43,228 bases of DNA, taken from IMG/VR virus record IMGVR_UViG_3300042889_000795, positions 1 through 43,228 of that record, one strand, 5' to 3'. The notes below the pieces were generated by a model, which saw nothing but the letters and a program-made list of their open reading frames with translations, made no database searches and was not told the origin of the DNA. Position 1 is the first letter of the stretch; every line of letters begins with the position of its first letter. The stretch comes from a virus. Positions 32,653 through 42,887 of the stretch are shown in pieces. The position numbers and the translations under genes were made by a program.

Positions 32653-33037
32653 GGGGATGCCATGGACTTGATTGCAATGAGAATGGTAGTACCACACGTA
32701 GACAGAAGTGCTAGATGTCTTTAAATCTGTACAAAACAATAACTGACGAAATGTCAACTATGACCTTCGAAGACCTTATGGCTTTCGTAGGTGCTGATTA
32801 CGCTGTAGCAGCCTAGTCACAACAATCGGGTCGGTGCACATACAACCTAGGAACAGAAGTGTTTACAAAGGCTTTATTCGTTGAGCCCGAATCAACGAAT
32901 TGGTGGAAAAGCTGTACTAACCATACGGCCCCAATTATTTTGGAAAGTGAATAAGATTAAACTTTACCTAAACGTGTGATATGCTGGTATTATGATTACT
33001 TTGTAAGACAGGGGTTCGATTCCCCTCATCTCCACCA
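32653..33037 (+). ncRNA. ssrA: Transfer-messenger RNA (tmRNA) with long tag frame
   Basis: A 385-base RNA that rescues stalled ribosomes. The 5' GGGGATG (32653-32659) pairs with CATCTCC (33027-33033); A and an encoded CCA follow. The T arm AGGGG-TTCGATT-CCCCT is at 33010-33026. Helix 2 is seen as ACCACACGT near 32690 pairing with ACGTGTGAT near 32972. A 9-bp hairpin ATTCGTTGA/TCAACGAAT lies in the later pseudoknot region. The tag frame ends GAT TAC GCT GTA GCA GCC TAG (stop 32814-32816), that is ADYAVAA. If reading resumes near GAC 32745 (nucleotide 93; E. coli resumes at 90) the tag is about 23 residues, against 10 or 11 in E. coli. It has its own host-type promoter and a terminator. Confidence 0.93.
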
Positions 33038-33511: not shown

Positions 33512-34798
33512 ATGAAGATTATTGAGTCTATTGAGGAAATTAATGAATTAAAACAAAAGCTGGAAACGGAAGCATCTATTTGGTATCCATTGTGGGTAGA
33601 TAATAGTAAGCATCCATTAAACACTTCTATTTCGCTCGTAGTTGTACGATGTTCAGATGGCTTATACATTCTACCTCATAAACATACAGACGCTCTATCG
33701 TTAAGTAATGCGCAAATAGAATCTATCATAAATACCAACGGACAAAAGTGGGTATTCCAAAAAAAGAAGATATTACATACTCTTAATGTTTCAGTAAATC
33801 TATACGATGTAGATTCTGCATACTTTAGAAAGGAAGCAAAGGTAATTGATTATGAAGCCCCTTTAAATCCTCTCCTTTCAACGTTGACTCACAAAGGGTA
33901 TAGAGATGACTTAATCCAATCCCTTCCTCTAATGAAGATTGTAGAGGTGATAGAACCGCAATTTCGTAAATACTTCCATAATGAACCATACACTACTACT
34001 CTTAAGTGGTACAACGAAGTGTTTATACCTACCCTTTCAGATATCGAACAATTTGGAATCCGTGTCGATGGGAAAAAATTTACTGATAGATGGCCACAAG
34101 CTCAAAAGCAAGTATCCTCCGATAACTTAGTGTACACCGAATACAATCCATTTACGGTGACAGGTAGACCATCCAATAGACATGGTGGTGTGAACTATGC
34201 CGCCTTAAATAAAACCGATGGTAGTAGAGAATGTTTCGTTTCCGATGGTATATTCCTACAAATGGATTATAACGCATATCACCCTCGATTGATTGGTAAG
34301 TTGGTAAACTTTGAGCTTCCCAAAACCAGTGTGCATGAGTGGTTGGCCGAACAATATGGATGTAGTGTGGATGAATCAAAGGGTATTACGTTCCAATTAC
34401 TTTATGGTGGTATTGATGATGATTTCCGTCAAATCCCATATTTTAATGCGGTAGCTGATTACATTGATACCTTATGGATTGATGTACAAAAGAAGGGATA
34501 CTTACAAACACCACATAGAGAAATCCCATTGAGCTGGATAGAACAACCAAATGCACAAAAGGTATTCAACTACTTATTACAAGCCGTTGAGACTGAGATG
34601 AACATTGAGGTTATGAGAAAGATATTGGATTATATAAGAGGTAGTGGTATTAACTTTTGTTTATACACATATGACTCGTTTCTTTTTGATGTTCCGACTG
34701 ATATTGATAAGGGATTGATTAAGGGATTGAAGGAAATCATCGAAGGAAGTGGTTTCCCTGTTAAGGCTAGTTGGGGTTTGGATTACGGAAAACTATAA
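33512..34798 (+). CDS. Compact family-A DNA polymerase-like protein
   Basis: A 428-residue protein with the palm and fingers motifs of family-A polymerases. The T-x-TGR segment is TVTGRPSN (about 221-228). Motif A is QMDYNAYHPRLIG with Asp252. Motif B is DESKGITFQLLYGG with Lys290 and Tyr298. Motif C is TYDSFLF with Asp388, where bacterial Pol I has HDE. Residues 1-150 are too short for a working 3'-5' exonuclease and no DxE motif is evident. T4-like phages normally replicate with a family-B enzyme, so this may be a second, gap-filling or repair polymerase. Both metal-binding aspartates remain, so activity is plausible. A host-type promoter suggests early or middle expression within a late region. 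Confidence 0.8.
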   Translation: MKIIESIEEINELKQKLETEASIWYPLWVDNSKHPLNTSISLVVVRCSDGLYILPHKHTDALSLSNAQIESIINTNGQKWVFQKKKILHTLNVSVNLYDVDSAYFRKEAKVIDYEAPLNPLLSTLTHKGYRDDLIQSLPLMKIVEVIEPQFRKYFHNEPYTTTLKWYNEVFIPTLSDIEQFGIRVDGKKFTDRWPQAQKQVSSDNLVYTEYNPFTVTGRPSNRHGGVNYAALNKTDGSRECFVSDGIFLQMDYNAYHPRLIGKLVNFELPKTSVHEWLAEQYGCSVDESKGITFQLLYGGIDDDFRQIPYFNAVADYIDTLWIDVQKKGYLQTPHREIPLSWIEQPNAQKVFNYLLQAVETEMNIEVMRKILDYIRGSGINFCLYTYDSFLFDVPTDIDKGLIKGLKEIIEGSGFPVKASWGLDYGKL

Positions 34799-34804
34799 GA
34801 ACCC

Positions 34805-34813
34805 ATATTTATA
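34805..34813 (+). promoter_or_regulatory. Late-type promoter box ATATTTATA
   Basis: The box lies in the 39-base gap after the polymerase, 24 bases before the exported nuclease. It would also serve the 1396-residue gene. Confidence 0.5.
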
Positions 34814-34837: not shown

Positions 34838-35440
34838 ATGAAGAAAATCGTTATCCTTTTTATTTTTTTAATCCTTTCTTTGGTTTCCTTTGGACAAAAT
34901 GTAAGAATTAAAAATAATGTGTTTGAGGTTTTATACTCACAATCGTTAGAACAACCCTTAGTAATTAAGTATCGTTCTACTAACCGTCCTACAAATGTGA
35001 ATAGAGGAGCTATGGATTTTTATAAAGAAGCAAATATCAAAACATCAGATGGTGATGATTATAAAGCAAACATATATGACAAAGGACATGGTGCACCAGC
35101 TGCAACATTTTCTGATAATATGGTAAATCTAAAACAAACATTTTCTTATCTAAATTGCATAATGCAGGATAAATATCTTAATAGAGGTGAATGGAGAATG
35201 TTAGAAGAACAAATCCGTAAATGGGATGATACCGAAAATATTACCGTATTAATAAAAACATTCTTTGATACTCCTGCTAAAAGAGTAGCAACTGGAGCAG
35301 CAATACCATCCCACTTACAAAAACATATCTATTTTGAAAAACAAAAGAAATGGAAGTGTTATGTATTTCTAAATGAAAAACCTAAATTTAATTGGGATGA
35401 GTTGGAAATGGTATGTGAAGCAAACGACCATAAATTTTAA
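34838..35440 (+). CDS. Exported DNA/RNA non-specific endonuclease (NUC family)
   Basis: A 200-residue protein. Residues 1-20, MKKIVILFIFLILSLVSFGQ, form a Sec signal peptide with a Bacteroidota-style FGQ end. The mature part fits the His-Me-finger nucleases of Serratia type. DKGH at 81-84 corresponds to DRGH with the general base His84. Asn106, Gln110, Asn115 (metal ligand) and Glu123 fall in the expected spacing in SYLNCIMQDKYLNRGEWRML. GAAIPSH (about 153-159) resembles the conserved late strand. Such enzymes cut DNA and RNA without sequence preference. Export to the periplasm or outside suggests destruction of incoming competitor phage DNA, or of extracellular DNA at lysis. The stop overlaps the next start by one base. 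Confidence 0.8.
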   Translation: MKKIVILFIFLILSLVSFGQNVRIKNNVFEVLYSQSLEQPLVIKYRSTNRPTNVNRGAMDFYKEANIKTSDGDDYKANIYDKGHGAPAATFSDNMVNLKQTFSYLNCIMQDKYLNRGEWRMLEEQIRKWDDTENITVLIKTFFDTPAKRVATGAAIPSHLQKHIYFEKQKKWKCYVFLNEKPKFNWDELEMVCEANDHKF

Positions 35441-38400
35441 TGAATATGAATATAACTGAATTAATAAAGGAAATCGTATCAGATTGGGCATACAGAGTAA
35501 AAGATGGTATGCCTGATGTGAAAAATCCAACTCACTTAAAAGAGTTGCGTATTGTATTAAAAGAAATGGGAATATCTCAAATAGAAGATATGCTAATTGA
35601 AAATCTTTTAACCGAAAAGGGAAAGACTCCTCAAGATATTGCAGAAGCTGATAAAAACTTTACTAATCCTATCTTAAATAAAAAAGTAACTTATAAGAGT
35701 ACAGGTGGTGAAGATAAAGAAGGTATTGTTGGAAATCTATTAAGACAACCGGAAGGAAGTCCTGCTAGAACGGCAGCAGAAAAAATGTTACCACCGGAAG
35801 GTTCTCCAGAAAGAGAAAAATTAAATCAGGAATTGGGTGGTGAAGGACAACCAAAAAAACCTGAAGGTGGAGAAGGTGGTGCGGTAGGTGGAGCTGATGC
35901 TGAAAAGGAAAAACAAAAGCAAGCGGCATCAATGTTTGACCCAAAAGCAGACCCTGCAATGGGAGCTAGAATGGATAGAGAAAAAGCGGCAAATGATAAG
36001 ATAGCACAAAAGGATAAAGAAGCTGATTCTGAAAAATCAAAAGAAGAACCAAATCCATTAGATGCTAAATTTAATCCAATTGATATTAAAGATGTAGCAA
36101 AGGAAATGCCACAAGCCGATACTGATACATTTAGTGGTGGTAGTGATATTCCAGATGCAATAGACCCAAAGGAGTTAGAACAATTCAATACAGATATTAA
36201 TAAAGTAGCACAGCAAGTAGCTGATGCTAAAGCTAAAGGAGAACCTGCACCAAATGTTAATTTATGTGATGTAACTGTGCCAGGTACAAACTTATATTGT
36301 GATGATAACTTAGGAATACCAAGAGATGAGATGCCACAATTTAAAGGAAATGCATCGCCGGGTAGTAGAGCAGCTGGAATGGAAGCTGATGCTAGTGGTG
36401 AGGTTGATACTGAACCTGTATTCAAAGAAATGTTAAAAGAGAAGGGAATTAAAACCTTACAAACTGAAGTACCTGCTGATAAATTAAAAGCAACACAAAA
36501 AGATTTAGTTGGAGCAAAAGTAGTTGGTATGATGGGGGCTTTAGAGAAAGACCCTAATCATCCAAAAATTACCGCACCAATATATGTGAGTAGAGATGGA
36601 TATGTAATTGATGGCCACCATAGATGGGCAGCAATTGTAGCATATAATGCACAAAATCCAGACAAACAAATACCAATGAAAACAACGGTATTAGACCAGG
36701 ATATTAAAGATGCAATACCAATGGCAAATAAGTTTGCAGAAGATATGGGAATCGCACCTAAGAAAGCAGATGCAAATAAAGAGACACCATCAGCCGTAAC
36801 ATCAGTACCAAAAATTACTGATAAGATAAAACAAAAAATAGATAAATGGACTGAAAAGGAAAAAGCATTCTTTGAGAAAAACGAAGGTGCGCCTGGTTCA
36901 AAAGAACGTAGAAGTTTAGGACAGGCTTTAAAAGATAAAGCAGCTGGGGCTTTGAAGGCAATTAAGAAAGGAGCTAAGCATGAGGTTGAGGAATTTAAAG
37001 CAGCTGGTAAAGGAGTTCAAAACTTTTTTAGTGGTAAACCTTTGAGTGAGCATGAACAAAAAGCCGTTAAAGCAGTTGCATTTAAAGTAGTAACTACCGC
37101 CGTATTCGGAGCTGCATTTGGTGGATTATCACATGGTGTTGCTGCATTTGGAAAGCACGTAGCAATGGAGTTTATACCTCACATTATTGGTGAGACAATT
37201 CTAAAGGGAGTTGGTAAAGCAGCTGTATTTGCTGATGCGGATGGTGAAGCTGAAATGGATGCAAACATATTAAAGTTTACTGAATTGATTGCAAAAGGAC
37301 TTGAAGAAATGGAAATTAGTGATGAAATGATGGAGGATATGGTTGATTCATATAATAAGAAAAAAGAAAATGGTGAAACTGATAACGTTGAAACACCAAT
37401 AGAACCAAAAATGAAAGAAGAAAGTATAGATTTAGCAAATGAGTTAATGTTAGAAATGATTTATGGCTTTATAGATGAAGCAACATATCCAAAATCAGAT
37501 GATGGTAAGTATTGGGTAAAAAGTAAAAAGACTGGTAATGTTTATACTGTAATAGCACCAAAATCAGCACAACACGATGTTCCTAATAAGAGAGATATTA
37601 AAAATGCAGGAGGTACTACAACACCACAAGCTCCAACTAAAAAATTAGGAGCTGGTGATTTTAGAAAAACTCCTGATATGAAGCCGGATGTAAAAAAAGC
37701 ATCAGTTCCAGCTAAAAAAGAAAGAGTTGAAACAAATAATCCACACAAAAAGAACGGAGATGAAGGTAAGACTATTTTAGAAGTAAAACCCGAAGAACTT
37801 GATTCTATATTAGAAAAATATGTAAATACGGGAGAAGCAACTCCTGATGATATGAGAGAATTGGCACCAGAGTATTCAAACCAAGATATGGCTGATGGAT
37901 ATTCCGATGATGATTACTATTCAACTTCAAATGGTGGAAGAAAGCATTCTTCTTTGGTTAGAAAAGAGCCATATAAAGTAGATAAAGATACAAGAACAAA
38001 ATTAAAAGAATCAGGATTTCCTGAAAAATATATTAAGTTTTTAGAAAGATGTATTAATACACAAGTTAAAGGTAAAAAACCACCTGTAACTGAATTAATA
38101 AAGCAAGGTGGTGCTGGGCAAATTCAATCTCAATTTGGTGAAGTAATGGCAATGGCATTTATGTCAATGAGAGACCCACAACAAAGAAGACAACTTGCTG
38201 ATATAATGAGCGCTGAGATTGCAAAATCAGCAGAAGAATTTGGAGGTGGAAAACAAAGTTCAATTGCAACTAAAGATTGGGTAGAGGCCTCACTAACACA
38301 CGCAGAAGCATTTGATTCGGCAATGGATGAAAAATATGGTAAAGGTCAGTGGAGATTTGAAGGAGCTGCTTGGGATATTAGGAGTGATGTTGAATCATTA

Positions 38401-39630
38401 GGATTAGATTATAAAAACAAAGGATTCTCAACCGATGTAATGTTAAGAGTACAACCTTTAGATAAAAATGGTAAACCAAACGGACCTGCTAGAGCACAAA
38501 AGAATTCTTTAAAGAAAGATGAAAACATTTTCTTCTTTAATGGTTCAATTAATGAAGTTAATAATTTTGTATTAAACTTCTTAGATGATAAGGAGAGAAA
38601 AAGAGTAAAAGGATATGAAGCAATAGTAACAAAAGCAGGAGCATCAAACAAAAATCCAGAAGATAGAGCGGCCGCCTTAGCAGCAGCTGAAAGAATTACT
38701 GGATTAAAAGGTACAAAAGCAATAGCTGCATTGAAACAATTAGCAGGTGATATTAGAACAAAAGCATTTGATGCAGCACCTTCGCATGTACAACAAGCAG
38801 TTTCTAAAGTTAGAAATTTTGGAGGAGCTCAAACAAAATCAGCAGAAAGTTTAATTAAAACAGCAAACACTAATATTAGAAACGCAAATAATGTGATTGA
38901 TAATGCAAAAAATATAGATGGTGGTGATAAAGATTTTGCTAAATTTGCTTACAAAGCAGTTAAGGATTGTAAAGCAAGTGGTACTAAAGATATAACTACA
39001 TGTATAAGACAAAAATTAAGTGCAGCTGGGGAGGATACAACCGATGATAGAGTATGTAAAGTAGCAGTGTTGGCATCTAAAGTAGCAATAGCTGCTGGTG
39101 ATACTAAAGCTGAAAAAGCTTTGAGTAAACATTATAATTTAGCAGTAGAAGCCGGAAATGCTTTAATGGAAGTATTACCAGAAAGTCCTCAATTAATGGG
39201 AGGTTTAATGCAGAAATTGGCAGATGCATTCCCAATGAAGACTTGTATGCAGGGTGAGGAGTTTATGTGTATAGATGGTATGAAAGTAACTCAAAAAACT
39301 TTACAAACTGTATTTGGTGTAGCAAACTATGATGAATTACAAAAAGGTATGAAATTAAAAAGATTACCAAATGGTGAAACTATATTAGTATATGGTGCAA
39401 AAACCAAAGATGGTAAAGATATTCCGATTGGTGTAGTAGGTGCAAGACAAAAAGGTAAAGGATATGAAGGAACTGTTGGTTTTGAAATATCTTGTTCCGA
39501 TGATTTTGCATTAGCTATTTCTGAAGCAAATCGTAAAAATGGAGATACATCCGAATCAAATGAGAAAGCTAGACAATCTATTGGTAAAAGAGTAAATAAT
39601 AGAGCGGCAAAAGCAAATAAGAAAAAATAA
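35440..39630 (+). CDS. 1396-residue multidomain protein with ParB-like motif
   Basis: A very large, Lys/Glu/Ala-rich soluble protein coupled (TAATG) to the nuclease gene. Residues 1-60 are helical (MNMNITELIKEIVSDWAYRV). Residues 100-270 form a charged, proline-rich linker. Residues about 380-396 hold YVSRDGYVIDGHHRWAA, the DGHHR motif of ParB/Srx-like domains. A hydrophobic stretch, KAVKAVAFKVVTTAVFGAAF onward, lies at about 545-600. Near 676 a second leader-like segment, MIYGFIDEA, precedes KSKKTGNVYTV. Residues about 945-1055 hold a domain with FSTDVMLRVQ and KNSLKKDENIFFF that might be PD-(D/E)xK-like. The C-terminal 350 residues are unassigned. A polyvalent protein injected with the DNA is a reasonable guess; nothing proves it. 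Confidence 0.6.
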   Translation: MNMNITELIKEIVSDWAYRVKDGMPDVKNPTHLKELRIVLKEMGISQIEDMLIENLLTEKGKTPQDIAEADKNFTNPILNKKVTYKSTGGEDKEGIVGNLLRQPEGSPARTAAEKMLPPEGSPEREKLNQELGGEGQPKKPEGGEGGAVGGADAEKEKQKQAASMFDPKADPAMGARMDREKAANDKIAQKDKEADSEKSKEEPNPLDAKFNPIDIKDVAKEMPQADTDTFSGGSDIPDAIDPKELEQFNTDINKVAQQVADAKAKGEPAPNVNLCDVTVPGTNLYCDDNLGIPRDEMPQFKGNASPGSRAAGMEADASGEVDTEPVFKEMLKEKGIKTLQTEVPADKLKATQKDLVGAKVVGMMGALEKDPNHPKITAPIYVSRDGYVIDGHHRWAAIVAYNAQNPDKQIPMKTTVLDQDIKDAIPMANKFAEDMGIAPKKADANKETPSAVTSVPKITDKIKQKIDKWTEKEKAFFEKNEGAPGSKERRSLGQALKDKAAGALKAIKKGAKHEVEEFKAAGKGVQNFFSGKPLSEHEQKAVKAVAFKVVTTAVFGAAFGGLSHGVAAFGKHVAMEFIPHIIGETILKGVGKAAVFADADGEAEMDANILKFTELIAKGLEEMEISDEMMEDMVDSYNKKKENGETDNVETPIEPKMKEESIDLANELMLEMIYGFIDEATYPKSDDGKYWVKSKKTGNVYTVIAPKSAQHDVPNKRDIKNAGGTTTPQAPTKKLGAGDFRKTPDMKPDVKKASVPAKKERVETNNPHKKNGDEGKTILEVKPEELDSILEKYVNTGEATPDDMRELAPEYSNQDMADGYSDDDYYSTSNGGRKHSSLVRKEPYKVDKDTRTKLKESGFPEKYIKFLERCINTQVKGKKPPVTELIKQGGAGQIQSQFGEVMAMAFMSMRDPQQRRQLADIMSAEIAKSAEEFGGGKQSSIATKDWVEASLTHAEAFDSAMDEKYGKGQWRFEGAAWDIRSDVESLGLDYKNKGFSTDVMLRVQPLDKNGKPNGPARAQKNSLKKDENIFFFNGSINEVNNFVLNFLDDKERKRVKGYEAIVTKAGASNKNPEDRAAALAAAERITGLKGTKAIAALKQLAGDIRTKAFDAAPSHVQQAVSKVRNFGGAQTKSAESLIKTANTNIRNANNVIDNAKNIDGGDKDFAKFAYKAVKDCKASGTKDITTCIRQKLSAAGEDTTDDRVCKVAVLASKVAIAAGDTKAEKALSKHYNLAVEAGNALMEVLPESPQLMGGLMQKLADAFPMKTCMQGEEFMCIDGMKVTQKTLQTVFGVANYDELQKGMKLKRLPNGETILVYGAKTKDGKDIPIGVVGARQKGKGYEGTVGFEISCSDDFALAISEANRKNGDTSESNEKARQSIGKRVNNRAAKANKKK

Positions 39631-41030: not shown

Positions 41031-42887
41031 ATGATTTTACTTAAAGAACTATTTGAGGCCAACCCAAAAACAACTGATTTTTCGGCAATATCCAAAAAAA
41101 CAGGTAAATTAGTATATTTTGATACTAAAGATAATATGGATACTGCAGTTAAGGATGGTACACATAATACACCTAAAGTAAAAGGAAAGGATGTAGAAGC
41201 TCCAAAATCTTCCGATTTATTTAAAGGGGATTATGAAAAGGAAAGAGGTGACACAATTGATAATAAAGAACCATCCGAAGAATTTGTAAATGCAATGAAA
41301 GATACAAAAGCTGGGACTGTTGTGGTTCGTCTTAGTAGAAAAAATAAAAACGGAAAAATAGTACCAGATGCCGAATTTAGACAATCGGATATAACATCGG
41401 AACTTATTAAAAAAACATTAGAAGATAATGATATTGATATAAATCTTGTAAATTCTTTTGGAGCAGAAACTAAAATAAAAGATAATGGTAGGAGCAAACC
41501 TTTTCATACATTTATTAGAGATTTGATTATGAAAAGTGTTGAATTAAATCAGTACGCACCAGGTGGAAAGGCTGAAGATGCAAGATATTATAATGCTTAC
41601 GGATTTAGTAAAGATGCTACTGTTGAAAAAATTAAAAAAATAATTGACCCGGAAGGAATTCAAAAGAAAGCAGATAAAAAAATAGCTAAAGCTGAATCGG
41701 ATAAAAATGATTTGTATAACGATAAAACTACTAAAAATTTAACAAATGCACTTTCAAAGGTAAAGAATAAAATTATATTTTCTGGAACATTTACTCCAAA
41801 AGATGTTGCTAAAGTGGCTAACAAATATAAAATAGATGTAAATAGAATATTACAACATCCTGAAATGTATTTTGATATATCCGGATTTACTCCAAATAAA
41901 GAAGATTTAAAAGCTTGGGGTTATAAAAGTTTATCAGAGTATGCTTTAGTTAAAATGGGGAATACCATTTATTTTGGAAAAGATAATGAGACTGATGCTA
42001 TGGATGATTTATCAAATTTACAATTAGCATATCCACTAAAATATAAAACACTTTCAGATGATGAGTGGAATAAGACAATGCAGAATGAGTTAGAGAACCC
42101 AACAACTGTGGATGGTGGACTTCGTAACTTTATTAAAAAGGAAAGGGGAGATGATAAGGATAATTCTTTTGTAGGTATTTCGGAAGCTAATGATAAAAAT
42201 CAATCTAAATGGGTTAAGCAGCAAGCTAAAAAGAATCCAAATTATATAAATGATATGATTTCATATCAATCAATGATTAACAAAGATGCATTAAATAGAA
42301 TTGATGAGATGTTGAAATCAGAACCACCACCTCCAGTACAAACAAACGCTTTGTATAGGGGTATGGCTATGAATTCTTTTGATTATTCTAAATTTATGAA
42401 ATCTTTTAAGGAAGGTGGTAATATTGATTTACCAATATCTTCATTTTCATTTGATGCAACAACAGCTACTGAATTTGCTAATAATGTTGGTAACGCAAAT
42501 TCATTGGTAAATGAATCAAATAATCAATCCATAATAATCAAAGTAGTAAATTCAAAAAATACATTCAATGGATTTTGTATGAATGCAAATGTAGGTAATG
42601 TATCTGCTAAAAATAAAGATAAAATGTTTGGTAATGATTTTGGTGATTGGTCTGGCCAACATGAAGTACTTTTACCATCAAACAATAAATATAAAGTTGT
42701 GAAAACCGAATCTACAAAAATGGAAAAAGGCCGTAATTTTACTATTATAACATTAGAACAAGCGGGAACTAAAAACGAAATTAAGTTAAGAGAGTTTATA
42801 GATGATAACGAAAAGGACATTTTAAAGAAACATCTACAATATCCAAACAGAACATCATTATTATATACAAAAGAAGGGGAAAATTAA
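41031..42887 (+). CDS. Alt-like ADP-ribosyltransferase, probably head-packaged
   Basis: A 618-residue protein. The C-terminal part (about 430-590) carries the ADP-ribosyltransferase motifs in order: Arg443 in NALYRGMAM, Ser471-Phe-Ser473 in ISSFSFDATTATEFA (the S-T-S position), and Gln543-His-Glu545 in SGQHEVLLPSNNKYKVV (the E-x-E position). T4 Alt has E-x-E here, so Gln is a notable change. The N-terminus MILLKELFEANPK resembles the T4 Alt leader MELITELFDED, which directs Alt into the prohead. T4 Alt is injected with the DNA and modifies host RNA polymerase. A similar role is inferred, though targets are unknown. The middle (about 60-430) is lysine rich and unassigned. The SKKTGKLVYF segment echoes SKKTGNVYTV in the 1396-residue protein. 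Confidence 0.75.
   Translation: MILLKELFEANPKTTDFSAISKKTGKLVYFDTKDNMDTAVKDGTHNTPKVKGKDVEAPKSSDLFKGDYEKERGDTIDNKEPSEEFVNAMKDTKAGTVVVRLSRKNKNGKIVPDAEFRQSDITSELIKKTLEDNDIDINLVNSFGAETKIKDNGRSKPFHTFIRDLIMKSVELNQYAPGGKAEDARYYNAYGFSKDATVEKIKKIIDPEGIQKKADKKIAKAESDKNDLYNDKTTKNLTNALSKVKNKIIFSGTFTPKDVAKVANKYKIDVNRILQHPEMYFDISGFTPNKEDLKAWGYKSLSEYALVKMGNTIYFGKDNETDAMDDLSNLQLAYPLKYKTLSDDEWNKTMQNELENPTTVDGGLRNFIKKERGDDKDNSFVGISEANDKNQSKWVKQQAKKNPNYINDMISYQSMINKDALNRIDEMLKSEPPPPVQTNALYRGMAMNSFDYSKFMKSFKEGGNIDLPISSFSFDATTATEFANNVGNANSLVNESNNQSIIIKVVNSKNTFNGFCMNANVGNVSAKNKDKMFGNDFGDWSGQHEVLLPSNNKYKVVKTESTKMEKGRNFTIITLEQAGTKNEIKLREFIDDNEKDILKKHLQYPNRTSLLYTKEGEN

Follow-up and report, generated by a model that had tools for sequence, protein, structure and literature searches.

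An exported EndoG/Serratia-type nuclease of large freshwater Bacteroidota phages and its possible role at host lysis

Results

The analyzed window, a stretch of 43,228 nucleotides from the virus record IMGVR_UViG_3300042889_000795, encodes a 200-aa exported nuclease of the EndoG/Serratia type with an intact catalytic site (34838..35440, + strand, ATG start, TAA stop). Sec export of the protein is well supported, and the function favored here, although tentatively, is that of a late-made enzyme that would clear nucleic acids at host lysis.

The protein matched the Pfam profile PF01223 (Endonuclease_NS; E 4e-19, 69.6 bits versus a cut-off of 23) and the PHROG family phrog_14168, "nuclease" (E 5.8e-19), and its sequence matches in the PDB were Drosophila EndoG, Serratia nuclease and EXOG. 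An AlphaFold2 model obtained from a 78-sequence alignment had a mean pLDDT of 94.3, and replaced an AlphaFold model made with 20 close sequences in which the active-site region had a pLDDT of 71. The best PDB structure matches to the model were all EndoG, EXOG, Serratia nuclease or NucA (TM approximately 0.72-0.79 by query length; approximately 0.78 for mouse EndoG), and the beta-beta-alpha metal fold of EndoG/Serratia nuclease-like enzymes was found in it. The proposal of the first-pass annotation that the ORF encodes a NUC-type nuclease was therefore confirmed by both profile matches and by the EndoG-like predicted fold, and the enzyme is probably active on DNA/RNA. A chance match, or an over-reading of the nuclease motif, was ruled out on the basis of the PF01223 match, the invariant residues, the pLDDT and the PDB fold matches.

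The full set of His-Me finger residues that had been read from the sequence (His84, Asn106, Gln110, Asn115 and Glu123) was present at the positions claimed and showed no substitutions. His84, the general base, belongs to Asp81-Lys82-Gly83-His84 (35078..35089, +), the DKGH form of the DRGH motif; Asn106, Gln110, Asn115 (metal ligand) and Glu123 are encoded at 35153..35206 (+), and the invariant Arg56 (35003..35005, +) aligns with the catalytic-site Arg of EndoG and Serratia nuclease. None of these residues, the whole Asp81-Lys-Gly-His84 stretch included, varied among 50 distinct phage homologues. The same residues were invariant among 78 phage and bacterial homologues, with the invariance in this larger set being partly built in, since part of it was retrieved with patterns containing DKGH or TFSYLN; the first homologue set was collected with six peptides other than these, a match to a single one being enough and one of the six spanning Asn106 and Gln110. 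The literal DRGH signature was absent, with DKGH throughout the nuclease clade, and the profile match and the fold were nonetheless found. DRGH is the usual mark of the family and is not demanded by the Pfam profile, and the Arg-to-Lys replacement is conservative. The mature region of the nuclease is under purifying selection (1997 nonsynonymous versus 6514 synonymous single-change codon differences).

The N-terminus of the protein, MKKIVILFIFLILSLVSFGQ, is a Bacteroidota-style signal peptide. The predicted Sec/SPI signal covers residues 1-19 (34838..34894, +), with cleavage expected between SFG and Q20 and no lipobox Cys, and in the AlphaFold2 model residues 2-18, within the segment MKK...SFGQ, form a hydrophobic helix. 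A type I signal peptide was assigned to 151 of 155 phage homologues, and a signal peptide of any type to one of 400 neighbor ORFs of window-type loci, by a crude rule-based caller (not SignalP). The form of the signal was kept while its letters drifted (mean identity of 71% in the signal peptide versus 88% in the mature part), and it was because of this conservation of form across homologues that the signal peptide, already proposed in the first-pass annotation, was judged to be real.

A disulfide is predicted between Cys174 and Cys193 (35357..35416, +). Both cysteines occurred in 66 of the 78 homologues, neither in ten and one only in two, a co-occurrence that fits a disulfide formed in an oxidizing compartment. 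Neither a lipobox in the N-terminus nor a match to a T9SS sorting domain was found (Pfam; no NCBIfam match at all), suggesting that the nuclease is soluble and periplasmic; a lipoprotein or a T9SS surface protein was ruled out on these grounds. Packaging of the nuclease in the virion was not favored, because the Sec signal would take it out of the assembly compartment. The compartment argument, that the inner membrane would keep the enzyme off the replicating phage DNA, was counted as supported.

A late-promoter-like motif, ATATTTATA (34805..34813, +), lies 33 nt before the nuclease start. Thirteen copies were found in the window against 2.9 expected, a number reached by 0 of 100 shuffles; most are on the + strand and lie 10-70 nt upstream of a gene start, with tail genes and the nuclease among the genes so preceded. 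The genes concerned are mostly structural, and the + strand positions include 15, 11527, 20015, 20522, 24604, 34805, 39660 and 41019. With gene classes assigned by the analyst from the record annotation, TATTTATA was found upstream of 9 of 28 structural versus 1 of 39 replication/metabolic genes in the Flavobacterium phage immuto (P 0.001), of 7 of 17 structural versus 0 of 17 other genes in a 238-kb relative (P 0.007), and of 5 of 16 structural versus 1 of 17 other genes in a 274-kb relative (P 0.09), that one being the nuclease. Among loci with the same context as the window, TATTTATA was directly upstream of the nuclease in 45 of 46; it was upstream of the adjacent polymerase gene in none of 106. 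By its position only, TATTTATA appears to be a late-promoter element, and late expression of the nuclease is suggested for the window lineage.

Among the other contexts (n = 29), the motif was directly before the nuclease in three, before the first gene of the run in six and absent in 20; in seven of these 20 motif-less contexts the nuclease followed a thymidylate-kinase-like gene, with a 4-nt overlap in five. The immuto nuclease lies in a run of ribonucleotide-reductase and resolvase genes, also without the TATTTATA motif. Judging from these upstream regions, the timing of the nuclease varies within the family, and the pattern is weaker in other lineages. The TATTTATA and ATATTTATA motifs were not reported in the open-access papers searched, and a late-type motif would offer a means of testing when genes are expressed in this little-studied group of phages.

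Upstream, the nuclease is adjoined by a 428-aa family-A DNA-polymerase-like gene (33512..34798, +) that lacks the late motif; its product covers only part of the PHROG profile, and one of the two family-A polymerase genes of immuto is likewise short. The downstream neighbor encodes a 1396-aa mosaic "polyvalent"-type protein (35440..39630, +), and base 35440 belongs both to the nuclease stop and to the start of this gene, a 1-nt overlap. Translational coupling of the two genes had been taken to suggest a joint module: the 1-nt overlap is real in the window lineage, but the joint module was ruled out, since the nuclease occurs without the 1396-aa gene in many phages, a relative (L284) has lost the nuclease alone, so that its polymerase gene and the motif are followed immediately by the large gene, and the two proteins evolve at very different rates (mean identity of 0.86 for the nuclease versus 0.43 for the 1396-aa protein). 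The large protein is a neighbor, not an obligate partner. Its N-terminus is conserved and its C-terminal parts are swapped between relatives; a ParB-like stretch was recognized by eye, together with a phrog_2859 match and a weak SerK match, and the protein resembles phage "polyvalent" proteins, many of which are predicted to be packaged (PMC5512222).

Relatives of the nuclease are encoded by at least 536 viral-contig stretches and by 49 bacterial contigs, the latter mostly from aquatic Flavobacteriaceae. In the tree, the phage nucleases formed one clade (98/88) and the immuto nuclease joined another branch, a long one; because of this separate placement, at least two acquisitions by phages are probable, the second of them in immuto. 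Retention was checked starting from the polymerase gene rather than from the nuclease: 63 loci had enough downstream DNA, and the nuclease was present downstream in 62 of them. At polymerase-gene loci it is near-core. Loci without the 1396-aa gene had the nuclease beside genes for exported phage proteins, a thymidylate-kinase-like gene or a VWA-like metallopeptidase gene, among others. In one of these lineages (L051, 5358-8600) the nuclease closes a tight run of exported-protein genes with a late-type motif at its head, whose members include a 239-aa protein, a small lipoprotein-like protein and a 471-aa Ser-rich protein with a barrel-like end; in a separate phage lineage, a thymidylate-kinase-like P-loop gene (L068, 7453-8004) shares 4 nt with the start of the nuclease.

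Endolysin and tail genes lie in the same region of the window as the nuclease. A phage-encoded tmRNA was detected at 32653-33037 (Rfam RF00023, 82.9 bits), and its tag peptide according to ARAGORN, DEMSTMTFEDLMAFVGADYAVAA, looks unusually long. A 618-aa protein encoded at 41031-42887 showed ADP-ribosyltransferase-like stretches by eye (LYRGM and SFSFDATTATEFA) and no Pfam match; a stretch of approximately 70 residues at its N-terminus is found again within other large ORFs of relatives, perhaps as a shared packaging or processing segment.

Discussion

If the nuclease acts at lysis, a sugar-non-specific, metal-dependent endonuclease would be sent to the periplasm by the host Sec machinery and, in the window lineage, would be made late, together with virion and lysis genes. 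It would wait in the periplasm, with the inner membrane between the enzyme and the replicating or packaging phage DNA, until holin and endolysin break the envelope and the nuclease meets nucleic acid. Host chromosome, RNA and unpackaged DNA would then be digested, with packaged genomes protected by their capsids, and the phage would gain from a lower viscosity of the debris and an easier release of its virions. The nearest stated precedent for such a role is found in streptococcal phages, whose extracellular DNases are reported to break down bacterial DNA during the lytic phase and to lower viscosity (PMC3629212). What speaks against it is that 20 of the 29 other contexts, as well as immuto, have no late motif on or upstream of the nuclease.

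Because timing appears to differ in those lineages, nucleotide scavenging was kept as a candidate, if a rather unlikely one: exogenous or periplasmic DNA/RNA would be degraded by the exported enzyme, and the infected cell would take up the resulting nucleosides and phosphate to make phage DNA. Such a role is consistent with the nuclease overlapping or abutting a thymidylate-kinase-like gene in one lineage, with the ribonucleotide reductase and resolvase run of immuto, and with the aquatic Flavobacteriaceae relatives, many of them apparently lipoproteins, which would fit a nutritional nuclease; it is at odds with the late-type motif of the window lineage, with the fact that long DNA does not freely cross the outer membrane, and with the lack of a transporter or nucleotidase gene adjoining the nuclease in the window. 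Many large phages degrade the DNA of their hosts, and the nuclease could do so in the cytoplasm if its N-terminal helix were no working signal. This is very improbable, given that almost every phage homologue has kept its signal peptide, as has the separately acquired one, that Cys174 and Cys193 co-occur, and that a non-specific nuclease would hit the phage DNA too.

Superinfection exclusion, the role put forward in the first-pass annotation, would have the periplasmic nuclease cut the DNA of a second phage before its entry into the cytoplasm, and is unlikely in our view. The compartment is right, the fold is one of broad specificity and retention is very high (62/63); moreover, the bacterial nuclease SNIPE cuts phage DNA during injection (PMC13190303), and Imm and Sp of T4 block translocation of the superinfecting genome (PMC6832632). 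However, SNIPE is bound to the inner membrane, acts via injection proteins and was ineffective against every myovirus and podovirus of its panel (PMC13190303), so that a free periplasmic nuclease may miss DNA inside the tail tube. Exclusion is also best set up early, whereas a late-type motif precedes the nuclease in the window lineage, and no Imm/Sp-like small membrane protein, that is, no partner exposing the injected DNA, adjoins it; clearance at lysis was favored over exclusion because of this putative late expression and the missing Imm-like partner. Membership of a known defense family was not supported, as PADLOC gave no match of the nuclease to known exclusion or anti-phage families, a weak result since PADLOC covers few phage exclusion factors. 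We likewise consider it improbable that a widespread soluble phage nuclease destroys competitors' DNA in the periplasm of infected Bacteroidota, a form of exclusion that would depend on compartment and not on sequence or DNA modification. Clearing of extracellular DNA from biofilms or aggregates, so that progeny disperse, would be a variant of the lysis-stage role acting outside the cell, and one that sequence cannot separate from it; the secretion signal and the prophage DNase literature, which invokes dispersal (PMC3629212), agree with this variant, but no surface-targeting feature was found (neither a lipobox nor a T9SS domain match), and it seems decidedly doubtful.

With at least 536 viral-contig matches, export of a nuclease during infection appears to be a trait of many large aquatic phages of Bacteroidota. 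If the enzyme is late and linked to lysis, it would affect the return of host DNA to dissolved organic matter and the freeing of virions; if it is an exclusion factor, it would represent a compartment-based weapon between phages. The enzyme family is already known, and the immuto homologue is annotated as NUC1. An exported NUC-type nuclease in Bacteroidota phages was not reported in the open-access papers searched, and a survey of Baltic Flavobacterium phages did not mention nucleases; wide, conserved nuclease export by large Bacteroidota phages, with apparent late-type control in one lineage, looks undescribed in these papers.

Among known systems, gp012 of immuto (NC_055915, "DNA/RNA endonuclease G, NUC1"), a phage of a Flavobacterium, belongs to the same family, has the DKGH active site and a signal-like N-terminus, and shares 43-45% identity with the window nuclease; it differs in its separate branch of the tree, in its ribonucleotide-reductase/resolvase run without the late motif, and in lacking Cys174/Cys193. 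The closest cellular relatives are exported nucleases of Flavobacteriaceae (e.g. L088, L098 and L104), which have the same invariant residues; 18 of the 42 scored look like lipoproteins, whereas the phage forms look soluble, with a type I signal peptide (crude caller). The Serratia marcescens extracellular nuclease and mitochondrial EndoG (PF01223) resemble the window nuclease in fold (TM approximately 0.74-0.78) and in their His-Me finger residues, and are also exported or organelle-targeted; the window nuclease, in contrast, is phage-encoded and shorter, has DKGH instead of DRGH, and shares approximately 17-20% identity with them. SNIPE is similar in being a nuclease placed to encounter phage DNA at the envelope (PMC13190303), but it is a bacterial defense, bound to the inner membrane, with a GIY-YIG domain and a cytoplasmic catalytic part. 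The streptococcal prophage DNases (Spd/Sda streptodornases) are, like the nuclease described here, phage-encoded and secreted, and are tied to the lytic phase (PMC3629212), although they belong to temperate phages of Gram-positive hosts and the structural match was remote and to one streptodornase model only (E 1e-3).
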